Below, in pieces: positions 4,041-49,380 of a stretch of 64,000 bases of DNA (position 1 is its first letter; each line of letters starts with the position of its first letter). This stretch comes from Sandaracinus amylolyticus (GTDB lineage Bacteria; Myxococcota_A; Polyangia; Polyangiales; Sandaracinaceae): NCBI RefSeq assembly GCF_000737325.1, contig NZ_CP011125.1:9610001-9674000 (forward strand), given 5' to 3'. Below the pieces are notes generated by a model. The model worked only from the letters and a program-made list of their open reading frames with translations, made no database searches and had not been told where the DNA came from. Both the position numbers and the translations under genes were made by a program.

Positions 4041-4736
4041 ATGACGGCAGACAATCACGACGAGCCCGCGACGCTCGACGCGCGCGTCTTGCAGCTCGAG
4101 CGCGCGATCGCAGCGCGCAGGCAGCGCATTGCGTCGCTGGTGGGGACGCTCGACGCGCGGCAGCGCTCGCTGGCGGAGCGCATTCGTCCGGAGGTCGTGG
4201 TGGCACTTCCACCGCTCGACGTGGAGCGCGCGCGGGTCGAGGTGATGCGCGCGCTGCACGAGGAGCTCGGGCTGCTCGGCGCGGTGACGATCGAGGGCGG
4301 CACGATGCAGTGGAGGCCGCTGCATCGAGTGCTCGGGGCGCGCATCGGGCTCGAGGTGGATCTCGAGACGGGAGCGCAGGGCGCGACGCTGCGGATGCGC
4401 GATACGCCCTTCGCGGGTGTCTCGCCGACGGCGTACGTCGCGGCGACGATGTTCGCGACGATCCCCGTGACGGCCGTCGCGGTCATGTTGGTCCGCGACG
4501 CGCGCGCGCTCCCGACGAGCGCGGTGCTCGCCCTCACGATGTTGACGATCGCGGCGTCGCTCGTGCCGCTTCTCTCGTGGAGCAAGCGGCGTACGCGCGC
4601 CGCGCTGCAGCGATTCGCGGAGCGGGTCGCGGCGCAATTGCCGCGGAAGACCGCGCTGCGCGTGCGGGTGAGCGAGGACGCGGATCTCGAGAACGACCAT
4701 GTGATCGAGAAGGAGGTCGCTCGTGGTCTACCGTGA
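4041..4736 (+). CDS. Small two-helix membrane protein
   Basis: Not recognised as a named family. The 231-residue product begins with a likely coiled coil (LDARVLQLERAIAARRQ, then further heptads) and a mixed alpha/beta stretch. Two hydrophobic segments follow (starting PTAYVAATMFATIPVTAVAV and TSAVLALTMLTIAASLVPLL), and then a basic and an acidic tail. An in-frame GTG at 3996 would add 15 residues but overlaps the upstream hairpin, so the ATG at 4041 is preferred; neither start has a clear Shine-Dalgarno site. The 3' end overlaps the next gene by 14 bases. Three such genes lie in a row and probably act together at the inner membrane. Confidence 0.6.
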   Translation: MTADNHDEPATLDARVLQLERAIAARRQRIASLVGTLDARQRSLAERIRPEVVVALPPLDVERARVEVMRALHEELGLLGAVTIEGGTMQWRPLHRVLGARIGLEVDLETGAQGATLRMRDTPFAGVSPTAYVAATMFATIPVTAVAVMLVRDARALPTSAVLALTMLTIAASLVPLLSWSKRRTRAALQRFAERVAAQLPRKTALRVRVSEDADLENDHVIEKEVARGLP

Positions 4737-5367
4737 CGGCATCGAGCTGCGGCGCGAGCACGTACGACGGCTCGAAGCAGAGCTCGCGCGGCTGGACGAG
4801 GATCTCGCTGCGCTCGCGCGCGCCACGCGCGAGGGCGCGTGGTGGGAGCGACTGCTCGGTGGACCGCGCGCGGTGGAGCGCGTCATCGAGCTCGAAGGGG
4901 AGCGCAGCGACGACGAGCTCGCGGCGGTCTGCGAGCGCGTGTATCGCGTGAACGGTCGCGTGGAGCGCGACGGCGACGTGTGGATCTGGAGAGGCGAGCC
5001 GGATCCGCGGCCACGGCGCGTGGAGGTTCGCGCCGAGCGCGTCGAAGGACGCACCCGCGTGACGACGCGTGACGGCGGCGCTCCGCGCGCGCAGTACTTC
5101 TCGCTGCTCGCGCACGTGATCGTGGCCGTGGCGTCATTCGACTCTCGGTTTCTGGACATCGCGCTCTTCTGGGTCGTGTCGGCGGTCGGGCTCGGCGGGC
5201 TCATGCGGCGTCACACGATGCGCGTGGCGCGTCGCAAAGTGCTCGATGCGCGCGAGCTCGTCCGCGCGCTCGAGGTGGAGACCACGAGCACGACGGCGGT
5301 GCGGATCGACGACCACGAAGAGCACTCGCTCGAGGTGGAGCCGGTGATCGCGAGGGCGTCGCGATGA
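4723..5367 (+). CDS. Coiled-coil membrane protein, second of three
   Basis: A 214-residue protein starting with GTG, overlapping its upstream neighbour by 14 bases and its downstream neighbour by 4 (ATGA). An N-terminal helical coiled coil (HVRRLEAELARLDEDLAALA) is followed by a mixed domain and a short hydrophobic pair near residues 128-165 (FSLLAHVIVAVASFDSRF, then IALFWVVSAVGLGGLM). A soluble acidic tail ends the protein. The layout, coiled coil then domain then hydrophobic pair, parallels the preceding gene. The two may be distant paralogues forming a heteromeric membrane complex. No function can be assigned. Confidence 0.6.
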   Translation: MVYRDGIELRREHVRRLEAELARLDEDLAALARATREGAWWERLLGGPRAVERVIELEGERSDDELAAVCERVYRVNGRVERDGDVWIWRGEPDPRPRRVEVRAERVEGRTRVTTRDGGAPRAQYFSLLAHVIVAVASFDSRFLDIALFWVVSAVGLGGLMRRHTMRVARRKVLDARELVRALEVETTSTTAVRIDDHEEHSLEVEPVIARASR

Positions 5368-8411: not shown

Positions 8412-9275
8412 GTGCGCGCTTTGGCCGACGTCTTCGCGTACCTCGACTACCGCGCGTTCCTGCGCGACGTGTACGCCGAGAAGAAGGCGCTCGGGCGAGG
8501 CTTCTCGTTCCGCGCGTTCTCGCGGCTCGCGGGGCTGCGCTCGCCGAATTACCTGAAGCTCGTGATCGACGGAGAGCGCAACCTCTCGGACCAGATGGCG
8601 CCGCGCTTCGCGACCGCGCTCGGTCTGCGCGACGACGCCGCGCGCTACTTCGTCGATCTCGTCGCGTTCAACCAGGCGAAGGACGCGGCCGCGCGCAACG
8701 CCGCGTATACGCGGCTCACCGGGTTCCGTCGGTATCGCAGCGCGCACCGGCTCGAGCTCGCGCACGCGGCCTATCACTCGACCTGGTACCTGCCCGCGAT
8801 CCGCGAGCTCGCCGCGCGCTGTGACTTCGAGGCGGAGCCCGAGTGGATCGCGCCGCGCCTGCGCCCGCCGATCTCGAAGGACGAGGCGAAGAGCGCGCTC
8901 GCGACGCTCTTCGAGCTCGGCCTGCTCGTCACCGGCGAAGACGGCCGCGTGAGCCAGGGCGAGGCGCTGGTGTCGACGGGCCCCGAGACGCGCGGGCACC
9001 ACATCGGCAACTACCATCGCATGATGATGTCGCGCGCCGCGGCCTCGATCGACGACGTGCCCGCGGCCGAGCGCGACGTCAGCTCGCTCACGCTCTGCGT
9101 CGGCGGCAAGGGCCTCGCGGAGATCAAGGATCGGATCCAGAAGTTCCGCCGCGAGCTGCTCGAGCTCTCGACGCGGGAGAGCGATCCGCGCGAGGTGGTG
9201 CAGATCAATTTCCAGCTCTTCCCGCTGACGAAGGCGGAGAAGACGCCGGCGAGAAAGGCGAAGGCTCCGCGATGA
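8412..9275 (+). CDS. TIGR02147 family protein, putative DNA-binding regulator
   Basis: The product matches the TIGR02147 family, whose typical opening (FAYLDYRAFLRDVYAEKKA) and segment FRAFSRLAGLRSPNYLKLVIDG suggest an N-terminal helix-turn-helix fold. From the GTG at 8412 it is 287 residues long; a TTG at 8421 is an equally good start, and neither has an ideal Shine-Dalgarno site. Family members occur in multiple copies in Fibrobacter and myxobacteria and have no firmly established function. The stop codon overlaps the ATG of the next gene (ATGA), so the two are translated together. The C-terminus is Lys-rich (EKTPARKAKAPR), fitting nucleic acid contact. Confidence 0.8.
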   Translation: MRALADVFAYLDYRAFLRDVYAEKKALGRGFSFRAFSRLAGLRSPNYLKLVIDGERNLSDQMAPRFATALGLRDDAARYFVDLVAFNQAKDAAARNAAYTRLTGFRRYRSAHRLELAHAAYHSTWYLPAIRELAARCDFEAEPEWIAPRLRPPISKDEAKSALATLFELGLLVTGEDGRVSQGEALVSTGPETRGHHIGNYHRMMMSRAAASIDDVPAAERDVSSLTLCVGGKGLAEIKDRIQKFRRELLELSTRESDPREVVQINFQLFPLTKAEKTPARKAKAPR

Positions 9276-9985
9276 TGCGGCGTGCGAAGCTGGCACTCGT
9301 GACGGCGGCGCTCGCGCTCGGCGCAGCACCGTCGTGCGGTGGCACCGAGACCGGCAATCCGCCGTTCGCGCCCGACATGGGCGGCGGAGGCTACGATCCG
9401 ATGGGTCTCTCGCCGGATCCCGCGGTCGAGTCCGCGCTGATCTCCGTCGAGGAAGCGAAGCTCGAGGACTGCGAGGGCGCGCAGGTGCCGCTGCTGCGGC
9501 GCGCGGTGCTCGACGCGGTGGGCGGGCAGCTGCGGGTGCTCGAGCCGCTCGAGGTCCCGGCGGGCCTGTACTGCGCGATCGAGCTGTCGATCGCGGCCTG
9601 CGAAGATCCCGATCGCTGCCGCACCATCTTCGCGCCGTACGCGGTGTCGATCGACGGGACGCGGCGCGCCGACGGTGCGTCGATCGAGGTCCGCGACGCG
9701 ACGCGCTTCGTGGTGCGTCTCGAGGGCTCGTTCGACGTGACGCCCGACGCAGGCGGTCTGCTCCTCGCGGTCGATCGCACGCTGCTCACGTCGGGCCTCT
9801 CGCTCTCGTCGATCCCCGCGGTGGACGGCGTCGTGCTCGTCGACGAGACGACGAACGCGGATCGACTGCCCGCGCTGCGCGCCGGACTGCAGAGCGCGAT
9901 GACGCTGCGCCGCGACCTCGACGGCGACGCGACGCTCGACCCCGAAGAGATCATGGCCGCGCCGCTCGCGCAGCCGCCCGAGTGA
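9272..9985 (+). CDS. GGTETGN-type lipoprotein coupled to TIGR02147
   Basis: A 237-residue predicted lipoprotein. The signal peptide ends APSCGG, and the mature protein starts CGGTETGNPP, a motif I associate with secreted lipoproteins near TIGR02147 genes. The body is beta-rich with two Cys pairs and ends with an EF-hand-like acidic loop (DLDGDATLDPEEI, about residues 216-228), which could bind Ca2+. Two ATG codons lie in tandem (9272, 9275); the first overlaps the upstream stop. Translational coupling suggests the cytoplasmic regulator-like protein and this envelope protein act in one process. Confidence 0.75.
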   Translation: MMRRAKLALVTAALALGAAPSCGGTETGNPPFAPDMGGGGYDPMGLSPDPAVESALISVEEAKLEDCEGAQVPLLRRAVLDAVGGQLRVLEPLEVPAGLYCAIELSIAACEDPDRCRTIFAPYAVSIDGTRRADGASIEVRDATRFVVRLEGSFDVTPDAGGLLLAVDRTLLTSGLSLSSIPAVDGVVLVDETTNADRLPALRAGLQSAMTLRRDLDGDATLDPEEIMAAPLAQPPE

Positions 9986-9988
9986 TCG

Positions 9989-12073
9989 TCAGGGCAGGCC
10001 CATCACGGTCACGGGCGTGAGCTGATCGGTGGAGGTGCCGTCGCCGAGACGGCCGCTCGCGCCGCTGCCCCAGCACTTGGCGGCGCCGTCCTCGCGCACC
10101 GCGCACGTGTGCGACGCGCCGGCCGCGACCGCGACCGCATCGTCGAGGAGGAGGACGACGCGCGGCGCGCCGCCGTCGCGCGTACCGTCTCCGAGCTGGC
10201 CGCTCTCGTTCGCGCCCCAGCACCGCGCGGTGCCGTCGGCGAGGCGCACGCACGCGTGATCGTCGCCGGCGGCGATCCAGCCCGCGGTCGTGATGTCGGG
10301 CACGAGATCCGGGTAGGCGCGATCGAACGTGCCGCCGTCTCCGAGCTGGCCCACCTCCCCCGCGCCCCAGCAGCCCGCGCGGCCATCGGTCGCGACCGCG
10401 CAGGTGAACTCGGCGCCGAGCGCGATCCCGCGCGCGACGGAGATCCCGAGCACCGCGGTGGGCGCGAGCCGCTGCGTCGTGGTGCCGTCGCCGAGCTGAC
10501 CGCGCGCGTTCGCGCCCCAGCACGCGATCTCGCCCGAGCTGCGCACCGCGCAGGTGTGCGCGTCGCCCGCGTCGAGATCGAACACGTCGGCGAGGCCCGC
10601 GACGTTGGTGGGCGCGGAGCGATCACCGGCGCTGCCGATCCCGAGCTGACCGCGATCGTTGCGGCCCCAGCACGCGACCGTGCCGTCACTGCGGCGGGCG
10701 CACGAGTGGGCATCGCCGAGCGCGACCTGTACGGCGCCCACGATGTTTCGGACGAGGACGGGCACGACCTGATCGCTCCCTGCGCCGGAGTTGCCGAGCT
10801 GGCGGAATTCGTTGTCGCCCCAGCACAGCACCTCGCCGGTCTGCCGCACCGCGCACGCGTGGCGCGCACCGGCAGCGAGATCGATCGCGTCGGTGATCCC
10901 GGTGACGAGCATCGCGGTCGCGCTCGCGCCCGCGCTGCCGTTGCCGAGCTGACCGCTCTCGTCGGCGCCCCAGCACGCGACGCGTCCATCGCCGATGCGC
11001 GCGCACGCGAACGCATCGCCGGCGACGACCTCGGCGACGTCGCTCGGCGACACGCAGCTCCCCGCGTCGCACGACGTGCCGGCCTCGCACGTCACGCCGC
11101 ACGCGCCGCACGACTCCTCGCGCGAGAGATCGGTCTCGCATCCCGGCGTCGCGGTGCAGTCGCCGAACCCCGGCTCGCATGCGCCCATCGTGCACGTGCC
11201 GGTCGCGCAGGACGCGGTCGCGTGCTCGAACCCGCACGGAGTGTGGCACGCGCCGCAGTCGTCGAGCGTGCGCAGGCTCGTCTCGCAGCCGTCGGCGGCG
11301 TCGAGGTCGCAGTCGGCCCAGGCGTCCTGGCACGACACGATCTCGCACGCGCCCTCCACGCACGCCGGCGTGGTGTGCTCGGTGACGCACGGCGCGTTGC
11401 ACGCGCCGCACGCCGCGACGGTCGAGACGTCGGTCTCGCAGTCGTGACGGTCGGAGTCGCAGTCGGCGCGCCCCGTCGCGCACGCGTACACGCACGCGCC
11501 GGCGATGCACTGGCTGAGCACACCGGTGCGGAGCTCGCAGGGCTGATCGCAGCCACCGCAGTGCGACACGCTGGTCGCGAGGTCGACGCAGCTCGAGCCG
11601 CACTGCGCGCGATCGGACGCGCACGACTCGGTGCACACGAACGTGCCGTCACCTCCGTCGAGGCAGAGCGGGGTCGGCTCGGCACAGGCGACGTCGCATG
11701 CGCCGCAGCTCGTCACGTCGCCGAGATCGGTCTCGCATCCGTTCGCGACCGCGAGGTCGCAGTCGGCCGCGCCCGAGACGCACGTGAGCACGCACGCGCC
11801 CGAGACGCACTCGACGGTCGCGCGCGCGGGCGTGCCGCACACGTCGGGCCCTTCGTCGACGCGCTCGTCGTCGTCGTCGTCGAGCGCGTTGCACGGATCG
11901 CTCGACGCGCCGGCGTCGGCGACGGGAACGCATCGATCGCGCGCCTCGTCGCAGACCCAACCCACGGTGCACGGACAACGACGGTCCGCGAGGTCGATCG
12001 GCGCGAGCACACATCCCGCGAGCACGATCGACCAGACCCCTGCTCGGAAGCTCCCCCGCACCGCGCCGAGCAT
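9989..12073 (-). CDS. RCC1-repeat, Cys-rich lipoprotein
   Basis: A 694-residue predicted lipoprotein (lipobox IVLAGC near residue 21). Residues about 30-330 are Cys-rich, with at least four repeats of a GCETDL-x(n)-CGAC module, an Asp-rich ALDDDDDE segment, and 'TPC/QPC' Cys pairs likely to be disulphide-bonded. The C-terminal half (about 345-690) holds seven RCC1-type propeller blades, seen as CWGxxxxGQLGDG-like motifs (CWGADESGQLG, CWGDNEFRQLG, CWGRNDRGQLG, CWGANARGQLG and so on). Seven blades would close one beta-propeller. In this lineage the module is common on exported proteins and is unlikely to be a Ran exchange factor. It ends three bases after the convergent upstream gene. Confidence 0.85.
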   Translation of the reverse strand: MLGAVRGSFRAGVWSIVLAGCVLAPIDLADRRCPCTVGWVCDEARDRCVPVADAGASSDPCNALDDDDDERVDEGPDVCGTPARATVECVSGACVLTCVSGAADCDLAVANGCETDLGDVTSCGACDVACAEPTPLCLDGGDGTFVCTESCASDRAQCGSSCVDLATSVSHCGGCDQPCELRTGVLSQCIAGACVYACATGRADCDSDRHDCETDVSTVAACGACNAPCVTEHTTPACVEGACEIVSCQDAWADCDLDAADGCETSLRTLDDCGACHTPCGFEHATASCATGTCTMGACEPGFGDCTATPGCETDLSREESCGACGVTCEAGTSCDAGSCVSPSDVAEVVAGDAFACARIGDGRVACWGADESGQLGNGSAGASATAMLVTGITDAIDLAAGARHACAVRQTGEVLCWGDNEFRQLGNSGAGSDQVVPVLVRNIVGAVQVALGDAHSCARRSDGTVACWGRNDRGQLGIGSAGDRSAPTNVAGLADVFDLDAGDAHTCAVRSSGEIACWGANARGQLGDGTTTQRLAPTAVLGISVARGIALGAEFTCAVATDGRAGCWGAGEVGQLGDGGTFDRAYPDLVPDITTAGWIAAGDDHACVRLADGTARCWGANESGQLGDGTRDGGAPRVVLLLDDAVAVAAGASHTCAVREDGAAKCWGSGASGRLGDGTSTDQLTPVTVMGLP

Positions 12074-15153: not shown

Positions 15154-15813
15154 TCAGTCTCGGATCACTTCCACCGTCGACTCCCCGCTCTCCATCCCCG
15201 AGGGCAGCCCCATCTCGCGCGCTTCGCAGAACGCCACGAAGTGCCTCATCGACTCCGGCTCTCGAGCGTTCGCCGCGCATGCTCGATACGCGCGGCGCGC
15301 GGTCTCGAGCCACGGTCGCGCTTGGCTCTCCAGCGAGTCGCGATAGACGTCGAGGATCTCCGGCTCGTCCTCGAGATCGTCGGGCATCGGACGCCTGCGC
15401 AGCACACGCAGCACGTCCTCGTAGAGCAGCCCGACCAGCGCGCCCGCGAGGATGCGCTGTCGATGCTGCTCCTCCGCCGCCGCGTCGAGCTCGGTGCGTG
15501 CAGCCTCGATCGCGGCCGTCTTGCGCTCGAGCCACTCGCGCAGCGCGCCCTCGCTCCACTCGGTCAGATCGAGCGCCGCGCGGCTCCGCGCCGGCTCGGG
15601 CGCCGCGATGTCGAGCGCGTCGCGCGCGAGCTCCATCGCGCGGCGCATGCGCGGGCTCAGCTCCTCGTCGACGACGTCGGGATCGGGCATCGACGCCATG
15701 CTCGGCGGGCCCGAAGGCCGCCCCGCGAAGAGCTCGCCCTCGCGCATCCGCGGACCACCGCACGCGATCGAGAGCACCACCGCGAGCACCACGAGCAGCG
15801 ACGAGCAGCGCAT
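15154..15813 (-). CDS. Alpha-helical lipoprotein
   Basis: A 219-residue predicted lipoprotein. The ATG at 15813 gives a short n-region and the hydrophobic stretch LLVVLAVVLSIAC (lipobox SIAC). The open frame upstream of this start encodes residues with no signal peptide. The mature part is almost entirely helical and charged, with Arg/Ala/Glu-rich amphipathic helices and a conserved-looking Cys pair near the C-terminus (YRACAANARE, FVAFCEARE). No family was recognised. It lies 16 bases downstream of another exported protein gene and is probably co-expressed with it. Confidence 0.65.
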   Translation of the reverse strand: MRCSSLLVVLAVVLSIACGGPRMREGELFAGRPSGPPSMASMPDPDVVDEELSPRMRRAMELARDALDIAAPEPARSRAALDLTEWSEGALREWLERKTAAIEAARTELDAAAEEQHRQRILAGALVGLLYEDVLRVLRRRPMPDDLEDEPEILDVYRDSLESQARPWLETARRAYRACAANAREPESMRHFVAFCEAREMGLPSGMESGESTVEVIRD

Positions 15814-30248: not shown

Positions 30249-30259
30249 TGCGCGTCTCC

Positions 30260-30319
30260 AGTGCCAACGCTGGCACTCGCAGTGCCAGCGTTGGCACTGG
30301 CAGTGCCAGCGCTGGCACT
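30260..30319. repeat. Three 18-bp palindromes at an exact 21-bp period
   Basis: AGTGCCAACGCTGGCACT (30260-30277), AGTGCCAGCGTTGGCACT (30281-30298) and AGTGCCAGCGCTGGCACT (30302-30319) start exactly 21 bp apart. The outer bases are conserved and changes fall only at the central R and Y, keeping the dyad. Sites on one face of the helix suggest cooperative dimer binding upstream of the SMP-30-like gene (start 30345). The array is also 12 bases past the kinase stop and could act as a terminator. Confidence 0.65.
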
Positions 30320-30344
30320 GGCGCGCACCGGTAGACTCTCGTCC

Positions 30345-34297: not shown

Positions 34298-34301
<4 letters not shown>
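33648..34301 (-). CDS. Cys-rich lipoprotein
   Basis: A 217-residue predicted lipoprotein starting with a GTG that overlaps the subtilase stop (GTGA). The signal peptide is IVAAITLVIAASACEG. The mature protein has more than 25 Cys in short, regularly spaced groups (SPGTRCVAGRCVGW, TVDLECGTTRSICG, GEVCVDPGGGVGRC), like EGF/follistatin-style disulphide-rich modules on myxobacterial surface proteins. Eight bases separate its stop from the sigma gene. It could be a substrate, inhibitor or partner of the upstream protease. This placement is inferred from the operon. Confidence 0.75.
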
Positions 34302-35977
<1,676 letters not shown>

Positions 35978-36117
35978 GCGCTCCTCCTCGCCTTCTCGCG
36001 CGACGCGTGGTGCATCGCGGCCCCGGCGTGTTGTGGACGACCCTCTAGGGGCCGAGCGCACCGCGAAACGATCAACGCACCGACGAGATCGGTGTCAGGG
36101 TGTGAGACACGCGCGTG

Positions 36118-36434
36118 CGGCGCTCGACGTGCCCGACAGCACGACCACCGCCACGCACGGCGTTCGGCGTGCCCATCGGGCACCCACCATCGCGACGAAC
36201 GGCGCTCGGCGTGCCCATCGGGCACGAACCATCGCTGCGAGCAGCGTTCGGCGTGCCCGACAGGCACCCACCACCGCGACGAACGGCGTTCGGCGTGCCC
36301 ATCAGGCACCCACCACCGCGACGAGCAGCGTTCGGCGTGCCCGACAGGCACCCACCATCGCTGCGAGCAGCGCTCGGCATGCCCATCAGGCACCCACCAC
36401 CGCGACGAACAGCGTTCGGCGTGCCCGACAGGCA
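36118..36434. repeat. 42-bp tandem array with internal hairpins
   Basis: Six full 42-bp units (starts 36158, 36200, 36242, 36284, 36326, 36368), one degenerate 40-bp unit before them (36118) and a partial unit after (from 36410). Each has GTGCCC-x3-GGGCAC or GTGCC-x5-GGCAC, which can fold as a stem-loop, within a conserved CGTTCGGC...CACCCACCA frame. Two spacer types (CATCG/CATCA and CGACA) mostly alternate. The period is a multiple of 3, so reading frames stay open on both strands. The array lies between the pstS terminator and the subtilase gene. The bases 35978-36117 hold no gene and should contain the subtilase promoter. Confidence 0.8.
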
Positions 36435-36464: not shown

Positions 36465-36506
36465 AAAAAGGAGAAGCCGACGCACCTCGCGGCGCGTCGG
36501 CTCCTC
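36465..36506 (-). terminator. Intrinsic terminator after pstS
   Basis: On the minus strand AGCCGACGC and GCGTCGGCT form a perfect 9-bp stem with a 10-base loop, extended by flanking GGAG/CTCC, and followed by TTTTT. It is 29 bases or so past the pstS stop and is the strongest intrinsic terminator in the window. Confidence 0.85.
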
Positions 36507-36530: not shown

Positions 36531-37421
36531 TCAGCTCGAGGGCAGCGGGTAGAACCCGGCCTGCTCGACCAGCGCCTGACCGTCGGGGGATCGCACCCAG
36601 TCGAGGAACTCGCGCGACGTCCCGCTCGGCTCGCCGCGCGTGATCATCAGCAGGAAGCGCGCGAGCGGATAACGACCCGACGTCGCGTTCTCCATCGTCG
36701 GCGTGACCGGCTGTCGGTCCTCGCCCGCGATCGCGACGGTGCGCACGCCCGACGCGTAGCCGATGCCGCCGTAGCCGATCCCACCCGCGTCGCGCGACAC
36801 CGCGTTGATCACCGCGGCGGTGCCGGGGAGCGTCTGCGCGGTCACCGCGAAGTCGGCGTCGTCGAGCACGTGCTCCTTGAAGTACGCGTAGGTGCCCGAG
36901 TTGTTCTCGCGGCTGTAGAGCACGATCGGGCGATCGGGCCCGCCCACCGCCGACCAGCTCGTGATCTGTCCGCGATAGATCTGCGCGAGCTGATCCATCG
37001 TGAGCGACTGCACCGGGTTGTCCTGGTGCACGTAGACCGCGAGCGCGTCGAGCGCGACGCGCGTCTCGGTCGGCGCCACGCCGTTCTGAGTGAGCTGCGT
37101 GCGCTCCGACTCGCGCAGCGGGCGGCTCGCGTTCGCGATGTCGGTCGTGCCGTTGAGCAGCGCCGCGATGCCGGTGCCGCTGCCGCCGCCCGAGACCTCG
37201 ACGGTGTTGCCCGGATGACTGCGCGAGTAGCCCTCGGCCCAGCGCTGCGCGAGCACGACCATCGTGTCCGAGCCCTTCAAGCTCAGCCGCGCGCCCGCGC
37301 CCTCGGTGGTCGCCGCGCCTTCCTCTTGGCCACGGCCGCGATCACGATGACCTCCGCTGCACGCGGCGAGCGCCAGAGCGAGCGCGCACGCGCTCGCGAG
37401 AGAGACGTTGAGAGCACGCAT
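36531..37421 (-). CDS. pstS: Phosphate-binding lipoprotein PstS
   Basis: A 296-residue periplasmic phosphate-binding protein of the high-affinity Pst transporter. The signal peptide has a lipobox (LAAC, Cys21). The mature part opens LSLKGSDTMVVLAQRW, and the phosphate-binding segments GSGTGIAAL (about 81-89) and SRENNSGTYAYF (about 169-180) are clear. The later segment DAGGIGYGGIGYA is also typical. It lies 24 bases downstream of the OprP-like porin gene, so phosphate captured outside would reach PstS and then PstCAB. In most bacteria pstS is first in the operon; here it is last, behind the porin. Confidence 0.95.
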   Translation of the reverse strand: MRALNVSLASACALALALAACSGGHRDRGRGQEEGAATTEGAGARLSLKGSDTMVVLAQRWAEGYSRSHPGNTVEVSGGGSGTGIAALLNGTTDIANASRPLRESERTQLTQNGVAPTETRVALDALAVYVHQDNPVQSLTMDQLAQIYRGQITSWSAVGGPDRPIVLYSRENNSGTYAYFKEHVLDDADFAVTAQTLPGTAAVINAVSRDAGGIGYGGIGYASGVRTVAIAGEDRQPVTPTMENATSGRYPLARFLLMITRGEPSGTSREFLDWVRSPDGQALVEQAGFYPLPSS

Positions 37422-46810: not shown

Positions 46811-48031
46811 ATGCAGCACGACGTCATCGTGATCGGCGGTGGTCCCTCCGGGTCGACCACCGCGAACCTCCTCGCCCAGGCGGGCTTCCGCGTGCTGGTG
46901 CTCGAGCGCGAGGTGTTCCCGCGCTTCCACATCGGCGAGAGCCTCCTGCCCTGTGACCTCGAGGTGTTCCGCCGGCTCGGCGTCGATCCCGACCAGCACG
47001 GCTTCCTCTACAAAGCGGGCGCCGAGTTCCTCGACGAGCGCATCGGCGGCCACACCGAGTACCTCTTCGCCGACGCGCTGCCCGGCACCGCGGATCACGC
47101 GTACCAGGTCGAGCGCGCGAAGTTCGATCACGTGCTGCTCCAGCGCGCCGAGGAAGTCGGCGCCGAGGTGCACCAGGGCGAGCGCGCGCTCGAGATCGCG
47201 ATCGAGGCCGATCGTGTGCTCGTGAAGAGCGATCGCGCGAGCTACGAGGCGCGTTATCTCGTCGACGCGACGGGCCAGGACGCGGTGCTCGGCCGTCGCG
47301 CCAAGACGACGAAGCAGCTCGTCGACTTCGGTCTCGCCGCGACGTTCTCGCACTTCGAGGAGCTCGATCCCGCGATCGATCGCGAGCTCTGCGAGACGAC
47401 GAAGGGCAACATCAAGGTCCTCTTCGTCGACGACGGCTGGTGCTGGGCGATCCCGCTCGGCGGTCGTCGCATCTCGATCGGGCTCGTCTCGCGCCGCAAG
47501 GGCATCCAGAGCGCGTGGCTCGAGGAGACGATCGCGCGCTCCCCGTTCCTCTCGCGCGTCACGAAGGGCGCGACGCGCCACCGTCGCCCCGGGATGCTCG
47601 CGAGCTTCTCGTTCCACAACGAGAAGCAGCACGGCGCGCGATGGTCGTGCACCGGTGATGCGGCCTGTTTCCTCGACCCGGTGTTCTCGAGCGGCGTGTC
47701 GCTCGGCATGGTCGGCGCGTCGCACCTCGTCGACGCGCTCGTCGCCGCGCTGCGCGAAGGGCGCGAGGCCGATCCCGCGCTGATGGACGCGCACGCGAAG
47801 CACGTGGGGCACGCCTACGACGTCTTCGCGACGCTGATCAACAGCTTCTATCACACGGGTCTGCTGCACGGGCTCTTCTTCGCGCCCGAGCAGGACCCGA
47901 TGCTGCGCAAGGGGCTCACGAGCGTGCTCGCGGGCGACGTGTGGCGCGACGACAACCCGTTCCAGCAGAAGCTCATGAGCAGCAAGCGCCGCGTGATCTC
48001 GCTGCCGCCCACGGTGAACGGTCCGGCTTGA
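46811..48031 (+). CDS. Flavin-dependent halogenase-fold oxidoreductase
   Basis: A 406-residue FAD enzyme. The dinucleotide motif is GGGPSG (residues 9-14), the next motif is FPRFHIGESLLP, and a WxWxIP motif is seen at residues 210-215 (GWCWAIPL), the mark of the flavin-dependent halogenase family. A later GDAACFLDPVFSSGVSLG segment binds FAD. It is shorter than tryptophan halogenases (about 520) and closer in length to phenolic halogenases and geranylgeranyl-reductase-type enzymes. Xanthomonadin-like pigments carry bromine, so halogenation of an aryl head group is possible; simple oxidation is the alternative. The lysine needed for hypohalous acid activation could not be identified. Confidence 0.82.
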   Translation: MQHDVIVIGGGPSGSTTANLLAQAGFRVLVLEREVFPRFHIGESLLPCDLEVFRRLGVDPDQHGFLYKAGAEFLDERIGGHTEYLFADALPGTADHAYQVERAKFDHVLLQRAEEVGAEVHQGERALEIAIEADRVLVKSDRASYEARYLVDATGQDAVLGRRAKTTKQLVDFGLAATFSHFEELDPAIDRELCETTKGNIKVLFVDDGWCWAIPLGGRRISIGLVSRRKGIQSAWLEETIARSPFLSRVTKGATRHRRPGMLASFSFHNEKQHGARWSCTGDAACFLDPVFSSGVSLGMVGASHLVDALVAALREGREADPALMDAHAKHVGHAYDVFATLINSFYHTGLLHGLFFAPEQDPMLRKGLTSVLAGDVWRDDNPFQQKLMSSKRRVISLPPTVNGPA

Positions 48032-48193
48032 GAGCCGTCCGAATCGGCTCGGCCACGGAGAGCCCTCCCGTCCGCGTGCTGCGCACGCTCCCGTGCGGGC
48101 CCTCCGAGGCCGAGCACTCCTGCTGGCACTGAGTTGCAACGCCGCCCCGATGGGGCCACTGTTGCGCGCTTTTTCACGTCGGGGACGCGTCAG

Positions 48194-49060: not shown

Positions 49061-49380
49061 GCCCCCGGAGCGCTCGAGATCGCGCGTCGGGATCCCGGAA
49101 TCGACCCCCAGAGCGTTCTGCGAGTCGTTTCCGAGGGTTGGACACGTCCTCCCGAACGCTCGGGGGGAACTGTCCGGATCTCGGAATCGTCCCCCCGAGC
49201 GCTCGGGGGGAACTGTCCGGATCTCGGAATCGTCCCCCCGAGCGCTCGGGGGGAACTGTCCGGATCTCGGAATCGGTGCCCCGAGCGCTCGGGGGGAACT
49301 GTCGGCGACCCGGACGGGAGCGCCCGAACGTTCGGTCCGTCGAGTCCGGGACCCGGACGAGCGATCGTGTTCGCTCTGGG
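49061..49380. repeat. 43-bp tandem array built on a 20-bp palindrome
   Basis: Units recur every 43 bp with palindrome centres starting at 49148, 49191, 49234, 49277 and 49320; units at 49191 and 49234 carry the perfect CCCCCCGAGCGCTCGGGGGG. The rest of each unit is GAACTGTCCGGATCTCGGAATCGT-like. More diverged copies lie at 49061 and 49102, and another near 49358. It fills the gap between two convergent genes and could terminate transcription from both sides. There is no spacer diversity, so it is not CRISPR. Confidence 0.8.

Follow-up and report, generated by a model that had tools for sequence, protein, structure and literature searches.

A 42-bp tandem array beside a subtilase gene of Sandaracinus amylolyticus belongs to a dispersed intergenic class with a period of 41–43 bp

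The window, i.e. the whole stretch of 64,000 nucleotides that was analyzed, stems from the genome of Sandaracinus amylolyticus, which consists of one contig of 10,327,335 bp, and contains a 42-bp tandem array in the spacer between a pstS-like gene and a gene for an S8 subtilase. As outlined in Table 1, the pstS-like gene ends in an intrinsic terminator, and an earlier note on this DNA had placed the array between a strong terminator and the subtilase gene. This placement is confirmed by the 16-pair stem with its T run on one side and by the Peptidase_S8 match on the other. In the interior of the subtilase gene an 18-bp exact repeat (window 34609–34661) encodes a DPDPEP-like linker.

Table 1 Features of the window discussed in the text (window positions).
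Feature	Position	Strand	Remarks
S8 subtilase gene, likely ATG at ~35977	34298..35977	-	Peptidase_S8, E 2.3e-40
Conserved sequence preceding the subtilase gene	36040..36104	-	94% identical in the sister species G008, there after the pstS terminator without intervening array
42-bp tandem array	36118..36434	.	Six full units (36154–36405) and two partial units; TRF and shuffles
Main inverted repeat of a unit (example), GTGCCC-ATC-GGGCAC	36169..36183	.	Sequence; not unusual compared with shuffles
Second inverted repeat of a unit (example), CGAAC-GGC-GTTCG	36280..36292	.	Sequence
Intrinsic terminator of pstS, 16-pair stem followed by CTTTTTG	36471..36506	-	
pstS-like phosphate-binding protein gene (PBP_like_2), upstream	36531..37421	-	Pfam; protein 94% identical in G008
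Second array of the class, period 43	49086..49335	.	Unit with TCCCCCCGA-GCGC-TCGGGGGGA and TCCG-N5-CGGA; TRF

TRF reports the array from 36113 or 36118 to 36434 with a period of 42, 6.9 copies and a score of 386, and longer registers of 84 bp and 126 bp score 445 and 469, respectively. When the spacer was shuffled 300 times with its dinucleotides preserved, the score never rose above 64 and so never came to 386. The in-register full units begin at 36154, 36196, 36238, 36280, 36322 and 36364 with partial units on both sides, which corroborates the six full and two partial units that had been counted before. The units fall into two subtypes, CATC(A/G) and CGACA, whose succession reads B A A B A B A B, and the earlier description as mostly alternating therefore stands. 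The remark that the period equals about four helical turns is likewise correct, as 42 bp correspond to four turns at 10.5 bp. With head-to-tail tandem units in the range of ~10–100 bp the array has the build of a minisatellite or VNTR. A reading as CRISPR array was rejected, since there are no unique spacers and the entire 42-bp unit repeats. Plasmid records that were searched for relatives of the array contained none.

Every unit of the array carries a CGARC-RGC-GYTCG-like and a GTGCC-N5-GGCAC-like inverted repeat, the latter being present in most units as GTGCC/GGCAC only. The earlier note had claimed a stem-loop per unit whose stems still pair despite base changes. For this array, the second part of the claim fails. 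The difference between GTGCCC/GGGCAC and GTGCC/GGCAC is a single G-to-A change at the loop-closing pair, by which the sixth pair is lost, and represents no compensation. Among the cells formed by 10 stem pairs in 7 units, 94.3% pair compared with 94.2% in shuffles. A both-sided change is found in just one cell, a count which was reached in 344 of 500 shuffles, and in 2 of the 7 units the main stem has lost its outer pair. Compensatory stems were consequently rejected for this array, covariation being no better than in shuffles. An unusual hairpin was rejected as well: the unit's best hairpin is ordinary compared with shuffled units (p = 0.29), the fold of the doubled unit is unremarkable (z −0.49) and the unit lacks dyad symmetry (p = 0.71). 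The claim of a stem-loop per unit is thus not borne out for this array, whereas it is, on average, over the 41–43 bp class described below.

For comparison, the same site was inspected in the sister species G008, which shows about 89–97% identity to the window genome in most aligned stretches and is broadly colinear with it in inverted order. As read from the letters, the pstS site of G008 is devoid of the array, the conserved pre-subtilase sequence standing directly 3′ of the terminator, and the flank-to-flank distance amounts to 172 bp compared with 426 bp in the window genome. At six other pstS loci of the family no period-42 array was observed within ~1.5 kb, a comparison which rests on the pstS loci themselves, conservation of the adjoining gene aside. 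Since the array is missing both in G008 and at these six loci, a gain in the lineage of the window genome would be the simpler reading of the sequences. Furthermore, the adjoining protease gene seems incidental to the array, because G008 keeps the same gene pair without it. Between pstS and its terminator G008 carries an element (GGAGTGCTCGTCCCGC...) of a dispersed kind of ~85–100 bp, and the window genome has none there. Well-conserved dispersed repeats of ~85–100 bp are located at 48029–48136 of the window and at about 4690–5060 of the sampled stretch L145, with dozens of matches in G008, and a further dispersed family of ~115 bp (L160, about 9904–10020) has more than 30 matches in G008, mostly with at least 90% identity.

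In total nine array sites were compared between the two species; the gap letters were read at the pstS site of the window, while six length pairs and the G008 array at L082 were evaluated from positions alone. The six pairs differ in both directions, with 393 bp in the window genome and 688 bp in G008 at L145:3287, 390 and 137 bp at L145:15580, 1565 and 62 bp at L160:6109, 310 and 98 bp at L160:9783, 348 and 148 bp at L036, and 399 and 569 bp at window position 49086. The G008 array at L082 lies within 467 bp, the counterpart of which measures 2548 bp in the window genome. The G008 array at L069 is kept at the orthologous site, where the alignment runs on unbroken at nearly equal length (3718 versus 3700 bp); turnover is therefore not universal.

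Of all leads the remark on four helical turns proved the strongest, as a period of 41–43 bp recurs in 29 of the 67 non-coding arrays sampled in the window genome. In this genome the window and 80 stretches of 20 kb each were sampled (together 1.664 Mb, 16% of the genome). Outside it, the analysis covered 400 kb of G008, another 400 kb from four genomes that belong to other genera of the same family, and 371 kb from ten genomes that belong to the same order but to other families. Arrays were called by TRF at a score of at least 90 and a period of at least 15, and were regarded as non-coding if their overlap with gene calls, which were derived from simple codon composition, was below 0.3. Two of the 29 arrays are supplied by the window, which had been picked for the finding. 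The corresponding count for G008 is 5 of 12, biased upward by two because two stretches were placed over arrays already seen. The other genera gave 0 of 2 and the other families 2 of 13. Among coding arrays the period was found in 4 of 74 (window genome), 0 of 17 (G008), 0 of 8 (other genera) and 0 of 7 (other families). Neighboring periods are rare in the non-coding DNA of the window genome, with 5 arrays at 30–40 and 3 at 44–54 (8 over 22 periods), and on this local background the Poisson probability of 29 arrays at 41–43 is ~5e-31. One array of period 45 was kept out of the class count. At the same cut-off, 203 kb of intergenic DNA yielded zero arrays in each of three shuffles. Extrapolation of 29 arrays in 1.66 of 10.33 Mb results in a total of ~180 class arrays in the window genome. 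The array at 36118–36434 is a non-coding member of a dispersed intergenic class which occurs in two species of the genus and combines a period of 41–43 bp with units that are mostly unrelated in sequence. Among open-licence PMC papers no description of this class was found; in the main text of the genome paper of S. amylolyticus DSM 53668 (PMC5010890) the word "tandem" is absent and "repeat" appears only within CRISPR.

Several individual arrays should be mentioned. At 49086–49335 of the window worn edge units stay in register, and some retain their palindromes by paired changes, e.g. GAGCGCTC to GAACGTTC. Tandem palindromes of 21 bp, corresponding to two helical turns or half the class period, are found at 30259–30322 of the window and at 15585–15647 of L042 (CAGTGCCAGCGCTGGCACTGG and CAGTGCCAATGCTGGCACTGG, respectively). 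The class array at 8422–8634 of L156 contains CTGGATTTCAAATCCAG in its unit, which is reminiscent of a tRNA T-arm, and has related arrays at non-orthologous places of G008. Finally, two non-coding arrays of 43 and 41 bp (L117 7588–7714 and L125 2004–2141) both belong to one other family of the order, hinting that the class may be wider than the genus.

The period is tightly held. Over 34 arrays of both species it averages 42.0 with a standard deviation of 0.69, and 127 of 136 single units measure 41–43 bp, as counted in 25 of these arrays after leaving out 7 with fewer than 3 copies and 2 with a mismatched consensus. Suppressed indels as a proof of length selection were found to be unsupported: relative to substitutions, indels are commoner in arrays (0.20–0.24, one of the two counts being inflated by two arrays with a consensus length unequal to the period, which the other count omits) than in other non-coding DNA (0.136). 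Length is therefore not strictly guarded copy by copy. A free drift to unrecognizable sequence would be expected to widen the spread of the period. From the narrow period together with the frequent one-base indels we conclude that the period is either restored or selected at the level of the array or fixed by the process which makes the arrays. Non-coding arrays of 31–32 or 52–53 bp, which pure phasing would permit, were absent from the samples of the window genome and of G008, which would be somewhat more in line with a ruler of fixed length than with phasing. Intrinsic bending via a 10.5-bp base periodicity within units was rejected, as no such signal was observed, and so was a 42-bp unit composed of two diverged 21-bp halves, there being no half-unit similarity.

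In terms of sequence, the majority of the 36 class units has no recognizable relative. Nevertheless, 13 unit pairs reach a similarity score of at least 30 compared with 0.5 per shuffle set, and small subfamilies therefore exist. In the best related pairs the match spans the arrays and ends at or near their limits, and the flanks are not shared. A motif common to the class units was not detected beyond 7-8-mers at the level of subfamilies, the counts of which serve for ranking only, as words were counted per strand form and may exceed the number of units. The unit consensuses are GC-rich (0.693 GC). A DNA search of the own genome with the array at 36118–36434 returned the array alone; it is, however, a distant relative of two G008 arrays and, via one of them, of an array at 6492658 of the own genome, which was found later through this G008 relative. 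Related arrays, the absence of which was one of three results that were to count against the earlier reading, are thus present in both genomes.

Folding was analyzed for 34 of the 36 units, two outgroup arrays being left out. Doubled class units fold at a mean z of −1.38 compared with −0.23 for 123 intergenic 42-mers (p 1.4e-5), and a coding control of 82 doubled 42-mers gave a mean z of −0.19. Dyad symmetry at p<0.05 was observed in 12 of the 36 class units and in 16 of 246 controls. Complementary double changes make up 49 of 90 cells in the class stems but 105 of 388 cells when the stem partners are slid by 2–4 columns (Fisher p 1.4e-6); the cells share descent and the p values serve as a guide only. 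Shuffles within arrays gave a mean of 24.1 against the 49 and were set aside for the slid-partner control, because the worn edge units make this shuffle too lenient. Restricted to rows of 60% identity or more, the count was 32 of 50 cells versus 50 of 166 in the slid control, and at stricter identity the count falls to 9 of 19 (at least 70%) and 2 of 8 (at least 80%), so the signal stems from the more diverged copies. On the whole, class units show more self-complementarity than DNA from elsewhere in the genome, and where both sides of a stem pair have changed, the changes tend to be complementary.

With respect to these results, we tentatively prefer, at something short of an even chance, a BIME-like dispersed element which acts, if at all, as helically phased DNA. 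The conserved property would be a geometry on the DNA level, with dyads every four helical turns that all face one side of the duplex. Between transcription units, such an array may serve as a BIME-like landing strip for a putative dimeric nucleoid or topology protein or, alternatively, as cruciform-prone DNA that would absorb supercoiling. Arrays would spread and vanish without the help of the Y1/RAYT transposase, and unequal exchange would homogenize the copies and leave worn units at the edges. Points against this reading are the ordinary hairpin, covariation and dyad symmetry of the array at 36118–36434, the missing 10.5-bp signal and half-unit similarity, the frequent indels, the lack of arrays of 31–32 or 52–53 bp, the shared descent of the cells in the covariation count and the array kept at L069. 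The further-reaching version, in which geometry and not sequence sets the whole class, so that ~180 (extrapolated) intergenic arrays of four-turn dyads across the chromosome are read via shape and phase by a protein or by supercoiling and are propagated without a REP transposase, appears rather unlikely to us. Nearly as likely as the preferred phased-DNA reading is a functionless dispersed minisatellite. It would have arisen either from a single ancestral 42-bp array by spread and diversification or from an amplification process with an inherent step of ~42 bp, with unequal exchange homogenizing the copies and nothing depending on them. The existence of subfamilies, the empty site in G008 and the unequal lengths at other sites, the worn edge units which suggest exchange, the unsuppressed indels and the ordinary hairpin of the array at 36118–36434 are all consistent with it, whereas the spread of the period of less than 1 bp, though most units have diverged beyond recognition, and the excess of complementary double changes over controls argue against it.

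An element on the RNA level, i.e. an array expressed as a small RNA or as the 3′ tail of a transcript, with tandem hairpins that stop, shield or stabilize transcripts, is improbable in our view. The median distance from class arrays is indeed 71 bp to a gene 3′ end compared with 195 bp to a 5′ end (p 2e-4), which could reflect a role at 3′ ends or mere promoter avoidance, and stem changes that result in G-U pairing on what is presumably the sense strand are slightly favored compared with unpaired columns (36:34 versus 66:114, p 0.044). However, the array at 36118–36434 sits past a strong terminator, six class arrays are flanked by convergent genes and three by divergent ones, and in Rfam no family near the array exceeds its gathering score (best 25.1 bits versus 80). 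Hairpins in RNA would, moreover, need no spacing within 1 bp, and for this reason phased dyads on the DNA level are favored. A protein-coding repeat of 14 codons is very improbable. Open frames do run across the array, and two frames, one per strand, show 14 and 13 synonymous changes out of 25 (expected 24% and 23%), but this weak signal on both strands was judged to be chance: the variable columns are distributed 7/3/3 over the codon phases without clear bias, the two array ORFs that were searched gave no match in Pfam, 15 of the 29 class members of the window genome have a period of 41 or 43, and the G008 site has no array. The lowest probability, close to none, falls to a REP/BIME element mobilized by a RAYT (Y1 transposase). 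It would agree with the intergenic placement, the palindromic units in part of the class and the tandem runs; against it, the units run head-to-tail and form no single sequence family, and the profile of Y1_Tnp (PF01797) has 0 matches in all three members of the genus (the window genome, G008 and G009), whereby RAYT mobility was rejected, a Y1 enzyme too diverged for the profile aside. The profile is positive in 5 of 7 other genomes of the family (5 of 10 of the family in all) and in 5 of 14 control genomes, and a Y1 enzyme is present in each of the four genomes sampled from other genera, whose 400 kb contain zero class arrays.

Bacterial repeat families are normally known by a common sequence. 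In the present class the common property is the period, the units being largely unconstrained in sequence, and this points towards a ruler that is either physical or enzymatic. If the period results from the phasing of a bound protein or of supercoiled DNA, the class would be a test bed for DNA geometry alone organizing a bacterial chromosome; if it reflects an amplification step, a duplication mechanism with a fixed stride, so far unknown, would be exposed. Either way many sites with and without array can be compared in two broadly colinear genomes.

Among known systems, bacterial minisatellites and VNTRs share with the class the head-to-tail imperfect units of tens of bp, the worn edges and the differences between relatives, but differ from it by the narrow period of 41–43 bp across mostly unrelated units at ~180 extrapolated loci. 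The LTRR of Anabaena/Nostoc PCC 7120 has a unit of 37 bp and, as opposed to the class, represents one named sequence at several loci. Like the class, it forms dispersed intergenic tandem repeats with hairpin potential (PMC2408588). The tandem repeats of archaeal Borgs are also fast-evolving and partly intergenic and have partial end units; their units are perfect and A-rich and are found in genes as well (PMC9879509), whereas the class units are imperfect and GC-rich. According to PMC2817692, the spread of REP/BIME elements is ascribed to a Y1 transposase (RAYT, TnpA-REP) and their palindromes are maintained by complementary mutations, and like the class they are intergenic, dispersed, palindromic and often tandem. 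The extragenic location is shared by the class with 29 non-coding versus 4 coding arrays in the window genome. In place of one conserved palindrome at many loci, however, the class presents 36 mostly unrelated units, arranged head-to-tail and not as alternating REPs, at a fixed 42-bp period in a genus without a detected Y1 transposase.
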